This document shows positions 1-2,772 of a stretch of 64,000 nucleotides of DNA, in pieces. Under the pieces are notes generated by a model, which did no database searches, was not told the DNA's origin, and saw only the letters and a program-made list of their open reading frames with translations. Positions within the stretch are counted from its first letter, which is position 1, and the number at the start of each line of letters is the position of its first letter. This DNA is from Anaerolineae bacterium (GTDB taxonomy: Bacteria > Chloroflexota > Anaerolineae > Aggregatilineales > J027): positions 65,761-129,760 of the forward strand of contig JAJTXY010000011.1 of NCBI GenBank assembly GCA_021463865.1, in the 5' to 3' direction. Made by a program: the position numbers and the translations under genes.

Positions 1-1145
1 GTACAGCGGAACAGTTCAGCGATGACCTGCGCCGCCCATAATTTACCATCGGGATGTGCCGCCAGCCGGAGCAAAATATCACGTTCACTGGTATCTTCTT
101 CCCAATCGCGGATTTGACCAATCCACTCTTGATGTTGTCCGGTCTGTAATTTGGGCAGTAGTTGGCGCAGCACCATTTTCAGATCGCCAACGATGCCAAC
201 ATCTACTTTGACATTTTTATTGATTTCACTGGGGTCAATTTCGACGTGAATTTTCTTGGAATCGGGCGAGTAGGTCTTGAGATTGCCTGTCACACGGTCA
301 TCAAATCGCATCCCAAACGCCAGCAGTAGATCGGCCTGTTGGATGGCCTGATTCGCCGCTGCGGTGCCGTGCATCCCCATCATCCCGACACACAGCGGGT
401 GATTCTCTGGAAAACCGCCCTTGCCCAACAGGGTCAGCGCAACGGGTGTCTGCGTGATTTCGGCAAAACTACGGATCTCGTCCATTGCCCCCGACATCAA
501 CACCCCATGTCCCGCCAAAATCAACGGGCGTTTGGCGCTATGAATCAAGTCCAACGCGGCTTCAATCTCTTTGGGGTGGGCTTTCCCCGGTACGTTATAT
601 CCGGGCAGACGCAATTCACCTTCGGGGTAATGGAATTCAATCACTTTATTTTGGACATCTTTGGGGATGTCTACCAATACTGGGCCGGGGCGACCCGTCC
701 GCGCAATATGGAAGGCTTCGCGGATGGTATAGGCAATATCTTCCGTCCGTGTTACCAGATAATTGTGCTTGGTCACGGGCAACGTACAGCCTGTTACGTC
801 GGTTTCTTGGAAGGCGTCCGAGCCAATTGCACCCAACGGAACCTGTCCGGTAATCGCCACCAAGGGTGACGAATCCATCATGGCGTTGGCAAGGCCCGTC
901 ACCAAATTGGTCGCGCCGGGTCCGCTGGTCGCCAGCATTACCCCAACCTTACCCGTTGCGCGGGCATATCCCTCCGCCATATGCGTTCCGCCCTGTTCAT
1001 GACGCGGCAAAACATGGCGAATTTGTGGATACTTGGTCAGCGCGTCATAGATCGGTAAAATCGCGCCGCCGGGATAACCAAATACGAGATCAACCCCTTC
1101 ACGTAATAAACATTCCCAAACAATTTCAGCACCCGTTAATTTCAT
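1..1145 (-). CDS. ilvB: Acetolactate synthase large subunit (partial, 3' end outside window)
   Basis: Thiamine-diphosphate enzyme that condenses two pyruvates (or pyruvate and 2-oxobutyrate) at the first common step of valine, leucine and isoleucine synthesis. About 381 N-terminal residues are visible when the minus strand is translated. They include the N-terminal MKLTGAEIVWECL, the glycine-rich VFGYPGGAILPIYDAL with the catalytic-type glutamate in PRHEQGGTHMAEGYAR, and TSGPGATNLVTGLANA. This is the typical order for the PYR domain followed by the central domain. The start at 1145 has AGGAGG nine bases upstream. The PP domain lies beyond the left edge. It sits 39 bases downstream of ilvE on the same strand, so the two are probably co-transcribed. 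No regulatory subunit gene (ilvN) is visible in the window. Confidence 0.95.
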   Translation of the reverse strand, partial: MKLTGAEIVWECLLREGVDLVFGYPGGAILPIYDALTKYPQIRHVLPRHEQGGTHMAEGYARATGKVGVMLATSGPGATNLVTGLANAMMDSSPLVAITGQVPLGAIGSDAFQETDVTGCTLPVTKHNYLVTRTEDIAYTIREAFHIARTGRPGPVLVDIPKDVQNKVIEFHYPEGELRLPGYNVPGKAHPKEIEAALDLIHSAKRPLILAGHGVLMSGAMDEIRSFAEITQTPVALTLLGKGGFPENHPLCVGMMGMHGTAAANQAIQQADLLLAFGMRFDDRVTGNLKTYSPDSKKIHVEIDPSEINKNVKVDVGIVGDLKMVLRQLLPKLQTGQHQEWIGQIRDWEEDTSERDILLRLAAHPDGKLWAAQVIAELFRC

Positions 1146-1184: not shown

Positions 1185-2135
1185 CTAATCGTCGCCTGCT
1201 TCTGCAACGGATTGTTGAACATAGGTCAACCAACCATGTACATCGGGTGAACGCCCCTCAACGGTAGCAAAAAAGGCATCCTGTAAGGCTTTGGTGATCG
1301 GGCCACGCTTACCACTACCTACCTGCAATCCGTCTACGCTACGGATAGGGGTAATTTCTGCCGCCGTCCCAGTCATAAAGATTTCATCGGCGATATAGAG
1401 CATCTCACGCACCAATGTTTCCTCGCGTACTGGAATGCCGAGATCAGCCGCAAGGGTCAACACTGTATCACGGGTAATGCCAGACAAAATGCTGGAAGCG
1501 ACGGATGGCGTATAAATCGTGCCATTAATCATCAGGAACAAATTCTCGCCGGCCCCTTCGCTGAGATTGCCATTTACATCAAGGGTAATGCCTTCGGTAT
1601 AACCATGTCGTTTGGCTTCCATTGAGACCTGCTGGTTATTGACATATTGGCCGCCGACCTTTGCCATCGGGCTAGAGGCCACACGCCGCCAACTGGTTAC
1701 AGCCGCATCAATACCGTTTTCGATACCATCTGCCCCTAGATAGCGCCCCCATTCAATCGAGATAATCACCACTTCCACCTTTTGCCCTGCTGCATTGAGG
1801 CCAAATGAGTCGCTGTCGCGGAAGGCCAGTGGGCGGATATAGCAGGATTTTTGTTTGTTACGGGCTACCAAGTCAACGCAGGCCGCTTCGAGTTCTGCTT
1901 GGCTAAATTCGAGTTGATCGCCCATCCGCATGATCTTGGCGCTGTACATAAAACGGGCCATATGATCGGTGAGACGAAAGACCGCCGGGCCATTGTCGGT
2001 GGCATAGGTGCGGATGCCTTCAAATACACTGCTGCCATAGTGCAGAGCATGAGTGCTGACATGAACAGTGGCCTCATGCCAAGGAACCCAGTTTCCAGAA
2101 AACCATATCCATTCAGAAGCATTTTTTAGGGGCAT
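1185..2135 (-). CDS. ilvE: Branched-chain amino acid aminotransferase
   Basis: Fold-type IV PLP aminotransferase that makes the last step of Val, Leu and Ile synthesis, using glutamate as amino donor. The 316-residue protein has the family length. The Schiff-base lysine is K159 in MAKVGGQYVNN, followed by the family signature RHGYTEGITLDVNGNLSEG and then EIFMTGTAAEITPI. An upstream in-frame start at 2183 exists, but the ATG at 2135 has GAGG six bases ahead and gives the normal IlvE N-terminus (PLKNASEWIWFSG), so it was chosen. It is followed by ilvB, and its leader region carries a probable attenuator (2493-2772), which suggests control by charged branched-chain tRNA. Confidence 0.95.
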   Translation of the reverse strand: MPLKNASEWIWFSGNWVPWHEATVHVSTHALHYGSSVFEGIRTYATDNGPAVFRLTDHMARFMYSAKIMRMGDQLEFSQAELEAACVDLVARNKQKSCYIRPLAFRDSDSFGLNAAGQKVEVVIISIEWGRYLGADGIENGIDAAVTSWRRVASSPMAKVGGQYVNNQQVSMEAKRHGYTEGITLDVNGNLSEGAGENLFLMINGTIYTPSVASSILSGITRDTVLTLAADLGIPVREETLVREMLYIADEIFMTGTAAEITPIRSVDGLQVGSGKRGPITKALQDAFFATVEGRSPDVHGWLTYVQQSVAEAGDD

Positions 2136-2492: not shown

Positions 2493-2528
2493 AAAAACGC
2501 CGCTTGGAGGGGTGGCTCCAAACGGCGT
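2493..2528 (-). terminator. Leader terminator (candidate attenuator of the ilv operon)
   Basis: On the minus strand a 13-bp stem (one G-U pair, arms 2497-2509 and 2516-2528) with a 6-base loop is followed at once by five T residues. It lies about 24 bases after the stop codon of the Leu/Ile/Val-rich leader peptide and before the first structural ORF. That is the position expected of an attenuator's terminator, not of an end-of-operon terminator. Confidence 0.8.
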
Positions 2529-2552
2529 CTCGGTTTACTGTGTTAGGTGACT

Positions 2553-2693
2553 TTAGCTTTGCTCTGGCTTGAGTCGGCGCTGCATCACTACCGGACTGTC
2601 TGAAGCACATTTCTCCTCGCTCGTAAGGCTTACGACTACGAGGAGGCCGGTAATGAGGATAAGGCTAAGGATAGGCAGAGCAAAAAGTGCCAT
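2553..2693 (-). CDS. Putative branched-chain amino acid leader peptide
   Basis: A 46-residue peptide starting MALFALP. Fourteen of residues 2-22 are Leu, Ile or Val, including LPILSLILITGLLVVVSL with two consecutive Leu and three consecutive Val codons. The composition and size resemble the ilv leader peptides of enterobacteria, although the sequence itself is not conserved in that family. The predicted promoter at 2744-2772 would start transcription near 2737, just upstream of this ATG. No strong Shine-Dalgarno is visible. The alternative reading is a tiny single-pass membrane protein; the hairpin over the Val codons, the terminator behind it and the ilv genes downstream favour a leader peptide. 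Confidence 0.65.
   Translation of the reverse strand: MALFALPILSLILITGLLVVVSLTSEEKCASDSPVVMQRRLKPEQS
2613..2645 (-). promoter_or_regulatory. Hairpin overlapping the Leu-Leu-Val-Val-Val codons (pause structure)
   Basis: Two nested inverted repeats: outer CTCCTCG / CGAGGAG and inner TCGTAAG / CTTACGA. They cover the leader-peptide codons for LLVVVSL. In attenuators a ribosome stalled at such codons opens this stem and allows an alternative fold that blocks the terminator. The hairpin is seen directly in the sequence; the competing antiterminator pairing was not established by eye. Confidence 0.6.
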
Positions 2694-2743
2694 GATTTGT
2701 TCTGTTTTTATGTATAGATTGTTGCGTGATTTAGCGTGCCATA

Positions 2744-2772
2744 AAGATATTCTCAATCTTTTCTTTCGTCAA
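2744..2772 (-). promoter_or_regulatory. Sigma-70-type promoter of the ilv leader
   Basis: On the minus strand a -35 box TTGACG (2772-2767), a 17-base spacer and a -10 box TATCTT (2749-2744). Transcription would begin near 2737, which gives a leader of about 210 bases to the end of the terminator stem and rules out the upstream TTG at 2756 as the leader-peptide start. Confidence 0.65.

Follow-up and report, generated by a model that had tools for sequence, protein, structure and literature searches.

The leader that precedes ilvE and ilvB in the window, by which we mean the whole 64,000-nucleotide (64-kb) stretch of DNA analysed here, is very probably a ribosome-mediated transcription attenuator. 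The evidence comprises its sequence, its conservation, its mutually exclusive predicted folds, covariation across the class and the codon bias of its short ORF. Peptide-mediated attenuation of the ilv genes had been proposed from the sequence alone, and that proposal is supported by frozen synonymous sites, biased codons, a covarying antiterminator and a fixed distance between the codon run and the segment we call segment 2. The mechanism is of a known kind; the locus is a well-supported instance of it, and looks like one member of an undescribed family that extends throughout the class.

Inspection of positions 2772-2490 on the minus strand located all the elements described earlier, and the sequence and predicted folds confirmed their order: promoter, peptide, hairpin, stop codon, terminator and ilv genes (Table 1). 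The promoter hexamers are identical in all four congeneric metagenome-assembled genomes (MAGs; L060-L063), and most of 62 leaders carry TTGAC-N15-19-TANNNT at -47 to -93. As a match to the -35/-10 consensus is by itself at chance level here (8 in the region against 7.3 expected), it is conservation that backs the promoter call. Transcription likely starts near 2737, about 44 nt before the ATG at 2693. The ORF between promoter and first gene contains 14 Leu, Ile or Val (LIV) codons in residues 2-23, ahead of the ilv-leu genes; the sequence-only reading had placed all 14 in residues 2-22, where there are 13. That reading had also seen no clear Shine-Dalgarno sequence before the leader ATG, and there is none. 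An SD-like core occurs in 12 of the 62 leaders and is lacking in the other 50, which suggests that leader peptides in Anaerolineae may be initiated independently of a Shine-Dalgarno sequence. By sequence and predicted fold, an intrinsic terminator lies between the leader ORF and the first gene. When both strands of the window were scanned for an ORF with at least 9 LIV residues in 12 and a terminator no more than 50 nt from its stop codon, the 46-codon leader was the single match.

Table 1. Features of the ilv leader and adjoining genes (positions in the window)
Feature	Position	Strand	Details
Sigma-70-type promoter of the leader transcript	2744..2772	-	TTGACG-17-TATCTT; conserved in genus and class
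Leader peptide ORF, 46 aa	2553..2693	-	MALFALPILSLILITGLLVVVSLTSEEKCASDSPVVMQRRLKPEQS; ATG 2693, TAA 2555-2553
Regulatory codon run, residues 3-23	2625..2687	-	8 Leu, 3 Ile, 3 Val; biased to CTT/CTC
Hairpin arms over the LLVVVSL codons	2645-2629 and 2627-2613	-	CTCCTCGTAGTCGTAAG and CTTACGAGCGAGGAG
1:2 hairpin	2586..2655	-	CAUUACCGG + CUCCUCGUAGUCGUAAG with CUUACGAGCGAGGAG + CCGGUAGUG; -29.0 kcal/mol, z -4.3; conserved in L060-L063
Segment 2	2590..2606	-	GCUUCAGACAGUCCGGU; inside leader ORF; common to 1:2 hairpin and antiterminator
Segment 3	2515..2533	-	ACCGAGACGCCGUUUGGAG; terminator 5′ side and antiterminator partner
Intrinsic terminator with U tract	2494..2531	-	16 bp in fold; core 2529-2496, 14 bp, 8 GC
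Conserved small protein ORF, 69 aa	2241..2450	-	First structural ORF past the attenuator; SPWT and AL positions invariant
ilvE, branched-chain amino acid aminotransferase	1185..2135	-	TIGR01122, 386.7 bits (cut-off 245.6)
ilvB, acetolactate synthase large subunit (5′ part in window)	1..1145	-	TIGR00118, 751 bits (cut-off 538)

The genes 3′ of the attenuator make leucine, isoleucine and valine. The contig continues beyond the window on the same strand with ilvN, ilvC, leuA, leuC, leuD, cimA and the start of leuB. Each gene from ilvN to cimA scored above its NCBIfam cut-off, the exception being the truncated leuB fragment, and a few other ORFs are interspersed in the ilvE-ilvB-ilvN-ilvC-leuA-leuC-leuD-cimA-leuB cluster. 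No promoter-like site was found between the terminator and ilvE. The 69-residue ORF previously noted in that interval is present and is the conserved small ORF of Table 1; it matched no Pfam or NCBIfam family. Its homologues (66-81 aa) lie between attenuator and ilvE in L034, L040, L041, L045, L049, L051 and L052. The small ORF evolves fast outside the SPWT and AL positions, is single copy and was seen only before ilvE. A stable hairpin (2210-2183, minus strand; z -5.6 with flanks) separates it from ilvE, and L063 is still able to form a hairpin at this site from a different sequence. In six loci (L040, L041, L046, L048, L064 and L069) the last 150 nt or so before ilvE contain a second terminator-like hairpin, which is followed by a T-rich stretch and overlaps the place where the small ORF, or what remains of it, ends. 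This second hairpin is possibly a second control point.

The whole leader folds at z -4.9 and the terminator at -26.2 kcal/mol (z -8.2). Segment 2 can pair with the terminator 5′ side (2533-2515) or, alternatively, with the regulatory-codon region. The best partner within the leader for the terminator 5′ side is GCUUCAGAC (2606-2598), which pairs with GUUUGGAGC (2523-2515) to form the antiterminator core; beyond it the helix is extended by GUC-CGGU with ACCG-A-GAC. Folded alone, the antiterminator (2607-2511) has a predicted energy of -28.4 kcal/mol (z -2.7; 1 of 200 shuffles as stable), compared with the -26.2 kcal/mol predicted for the terminator. In the 1:2 hairpin, the CCGGU of segment 2 serves as 3′ arm of the outer helix (CAUUACCGG/CCGGUAGUG), and the 1:2, 2:3 and 3:4 pairings therefore compete as in classical attenuators. 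Taken in this leader alone, the 9-bp core between segments 2 and 3 is weakly unusual and not significant (p about 0.09); the antiterminator claim is carried by comparative evidence. The sequence-only reading had counted the want of an antiterminator pairing among its weak points. Such a pairing has now been identified from folding and class-wide covariation, is mutually exclusive with the terminator and is predicted to be freed by stalling; the weakness persists for the single-leader core. A fold competing with the terminator thus exists, as the attenuator reading had demanded. A different pairing, of AGCGCCG (2581-2575) with the terminator 3′ arm, was rejected because its bases are changed in L062 and L063.

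To follow the competition between these structures, we folded the leader repeatedly, moving a stalled ribosome from codon to codon. At equilibrium, the full-length transcript favours the terminator wherever the ribosome stands. Full-length folding was therefore set aside, and transcripts ending before the terminator 3′ arm were used. Under these conditions the probability of the 2:3 pairing in this leader was about 1.0 with the ribosome on codons 1-25, 0.6 on codon 26 and 0 from codon 27 onwards; without a ribosome it was 0.20. With the ribosome at the end of the run, the probability exceeded 0.5 in 60 of the 62 leaders. Given the equilibrium preference for the terminator, antitermination must take place while the RNA is still being made. 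The stop codon starts 42 nt past the segment 2 core, more distant than in most relatives, and a ribosome at the stop would therefore separate segments 2 and 3 and not cover segment 2.

These results are consistent with the following mechanism, for which we infer that the leader ORF is translated and that termination occurs in the cell, as well as which amino acid carries most weight. The RNA would start near 2737, with a ribosome trailing RNA polymerase through the 46-codon leader ORF. A shortage of charged Leu-, Ile- or Val-tRNA would stall the ribosome in the codon run (residues 3-23), opening the 1:2 hairpin and freeing segment 2 (2606-2590). Free segment 2 would pair with the terminator 5′ side (2533-2515), and the polymerase would go on to transcribe the small ORF and then the ilv-leu genes. 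When amino acids are plentiful, the ribosome would pass codon 26 and reach the stop at 2553, between segments 2 and 3; the terminator (2531-2494) would then form and transcription would end. If no ribosome is present, the 1:2 hairpin would occupy segment 2 and the terminator would win.

Conservation within the genus was assessed using the source genome and the four congeneric MAGs, of which L063 is the most distant. L060-L063 keep the promoter hexamers, the ORF and the hairpins even where the flanks have diverged, and the terminator sequence is identical in all five genomes. Relative to L063, third positions are changed in 4 of 46 leader codons compared with 128 of 300 ilvE codons (p 2.7e-6). 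Non-synonymous changes affect 7 of the 20 codons of the peptide tail, and the LIV part is almost unchanged. As the tail residues vary and the synonymous sites are frozen, it is the nucleotide sequence that is kept, and not the peptide tail. L063 carries GCUUCAAGC, and all nine core pairs between segments 2 and 3 are kept. The leader is thus conserved as a cis element beside the operon in the genus, and likewise in the class (below). All five congeneric genomes share a further, strongly conserved block (2971-2889, minus strand), situated upstream of the leader promoter. It contains direct repeats of roughly 11 bp, AATTGTTAGAG AATTGTTCGGAG, is single copy in the genome and is perhaps a candidate binding site for a regulator.

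The regions upstream of ilvB were then compared in 40 further Anaerolineae genomes, picked from the best ilvB matches. Analogous LIV-run ORFs followed by a terminator precede the ilv genes in 38 of the 40, from 17 families; of the two regions without a match, one (L182) falls at a contig end. The strict criteria gave 0 matches on reverse strands and 0.00 in shuffles. Together with order-level relatives, the class set provided the 62 leaders. Their peptide sequences are mostly unrelated, and what persists is the LIV run, the spacing and the complement of segment 2. The distance from the end of the codon run to the start of the segment complementary to the 5′ arm and loop of the terminator is 14.3 +/- 4.3 nt. 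It lies in the range 8-20 nt in 57 of the 62 leaders, compared with 15.8 expected if uniform, and is 18 nt here. True segment 2 and 3 partners score 23.1 on average, against 15.5 +/- 0.4 with partners swapped, and examples are CGCGTTGGGAGG/CCTCCCAACGCG (L180), CCGGTTGGAAGG/CCTTCCAACCGG (L215) and GGGGCTT/AAGCCCC (L064). Because related sequences are not independent, these class statistics somewhat overstate the evidence. In the same family as the window, G206, which has the operon, also has a leader; no convincing leader was found at the lone ilvE genes, apart from ilvB, of G203 and G207. One locus (L219, genome G209) has two tandem LIV leader peptides upstream of the ilv operon, each with a terminator and an antiterminator complement.

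Codon usage argues for translation of the leader ORF, as far as can be judged from sequence. Leucine codons in the leaders are 41% CTT, 29% CTC and 14% CTG, compared with 5%, 18% and 53% in ilvB. When each leader was paired with the ilvB of its own genome, CTT and CTC made up a larger fraction of the leucine codons in the leader in 21 of 21 cases (p 9.5e-7), and in the present genome these codons account for 8 of 9 leucines in the whole leader ORF and 7 of 54 in ilvB (p 1.3e-5). The valine codon GTG is avoided more in the leader than in ilvB in 20 of 21 genomes. Biased control codons are a prediction of the selective-charging theory of attenuation (PMC1183508).

Three other explanations of the locus were weighed. 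The 46-aa ORF might be an ordinary gene for a small membrane protein, with its own terminator and beside ilv by chance; its hydrophobic N-terminal half could span a membrane, and the leader role of its translation is itself deduced. If so, relatives might be expected to carry the peptide away from ilv, but this peptide was found nowhere else in 199 class genomes, nor were there direct homologues outside the genus (matches at E 0.07-1 are chance). The tail changes freely (7 of 20 codons relative to L063), in contrast to the almost invariant synonymous sites of the run; the peptides of the class differ, yet share a LIV run, its spacing and the complement of segment 2; and no promoter-like site separates the terminator from ilvE. 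The membrane-protein explanation is largely refuted, and we regard it as barely credible. It is also very improbable that the leader is translated mainly for basal control or polarity (through Rho, or reinitiation at the small ORF), with a constitutive, partial terminator and no amino-acid sensing. Equilibrium folding always favours the terminator, a further hairpin precedes ilvE (2210-2183), and there is a precedent for insensitive codons in the analogous Streptomyces coelicolor ilvB leader, where changes to the regulatory codons are cited in a passage of PMC1262725 as having had no effect, a point that counts against the attenuator reading. However, the codon bias and the fixed distance from run to segment 2 are what sensing at the codons predicts.

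It is highly improbable, finally, that the leader responds to tRNA through a T-box, to ppGpp or another riboswitch ligand, or to an RNA-binding protein, and not to stalled ribosomes. A ppGpp riboswitch does control ilvB in some Firmicutes (PMC10272879), and of 40 ilvB loci from elsewhere in Chloroflexota, 8 have a T-box (RF00230) upstream of the gene (L261, L264, L266, L268, L274, L276, L281 and L285). Against this, no Rfam family matched in the 64-kb window at the gathering threshold or in 20 ilv loci of the class, and 15 order-level loci gave no relevant match even at E 1 (three sub-threshold hits). None of the named Rfam amino-acid leaders exceeded its gathering threshold, the best being Trp_leader (RF00513) with 25.3 bits in L040 (threshold 41). 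The search that found no T-box in the window or at the ilv loci of Anaerolineae did find T-boxes at trpE and in other classes. Moreover, such a sensor would leave the LIV codons and the synonymous bias unexplained. Ribosome-mediated attenuation accordingly remains the preferred reading. Other loci outside the class have LIV leaders, such as L248, L258, L259, L265, L278, L279 and L280, and the same ilv operon has apparently switched sensor within Chloroflexota. A T-box precedes trpE in the source genome (L326) and in 10 of 14 relatives scanned. A Trp-peptide leader at trpE of the relatives was considered and rejected: none was convincing, and T-boxes occur there instead. Both kinds of sensor, a T-box at trpE and a peptide leader at ilv, are therefore present in the same genomes. 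T-boxes have been described at the isoleucine tRNA ligase and trp genes of two Dehalococcoides genomes (PMC2494555).

Enterobacterial ilv and leu attenuators (IlvL, LeuL) have a LIV- or Leu-rich leader ORF, competing 1:2, 2:3 and 3:4 pairings and an intrinsic terminator before the biosynthetic genes. The present leader resembles them in its ORF, its competing pairings and the position of its terminator, but has no recognisable sequence relationship to them (no Rfam leader family at the gathering threshold); here, in addition, segment 2 lies within a long coding tail, and most leaders are without a Shine-Dalgarno sequence. The Corynebacterium ilvB-II motif and ilvBNC attenuator, together with actinobacterial ilvB leaders, likewise combine an upstream ORF of branched-chain amino acid codons, a terminator and an antiterminator upstream of ilvB (PMC10272879, PMC11857589, PMC1262725). 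They differ in phylum and sequence; here the small ORF and ilvE come first, and the spacing from run to segment 2 is constant across Anaerolineae. The ilvB-OMG and Leptospira ilvB motifs are ilvB-associated leaders with predicted upstream ORFs rich in branched-chain amino acid codons but, unlike those here, also in threonine codons (PMC10272879). The ilvB-OMG alignment comprises 41 sequences, said in the relevant passage of that paper to come from various phyla (PMC10272879). T-box leaders share with the present leader the attenuation of transcription of amino-acid operons, and differ in sensing uncharged tRNA directly.

The sequence-only reading held that peptide-mediated ilv attenuation is little described in Chloroflexota, and we found no report of leader-peptide attenuation in this phylum in the open full-text literature; the survey of Lopatovskaya et al. 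(2010) may mention Chloroflexi. According to a 2010 survey, no leader-peptide system had been known from phyla other than Proteobacteria and Actinobacteria until its own his case in Firmicutes (PMC2965389). We consider it probable, though with moderate confidence, that peptide attenuation of branched-chain amino acid operons is a class-wide rule in Anaerolineae that occurs also in other Chloroflexota lineages, is undescribed there, is either very old or arose separately from the leaders of Proteobacteria and Actinobacteria, and coexists in the phylum with T-boxes, found at this operon in other classes and at trp in the very genomes that carry the peptide leaders. The codon bias of the leaders would offer a direct test of the selective-charging theory outside E. 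coli. With T-boxes at this operon in sister classes and at trp in the peptide-leader genomes, the class-wide Chloroflexota set would serve as a natural experiment on how bacteria settle on one of two ways of sensing tRNA, in its charged form via the ribosome or directly in its uncharged form.
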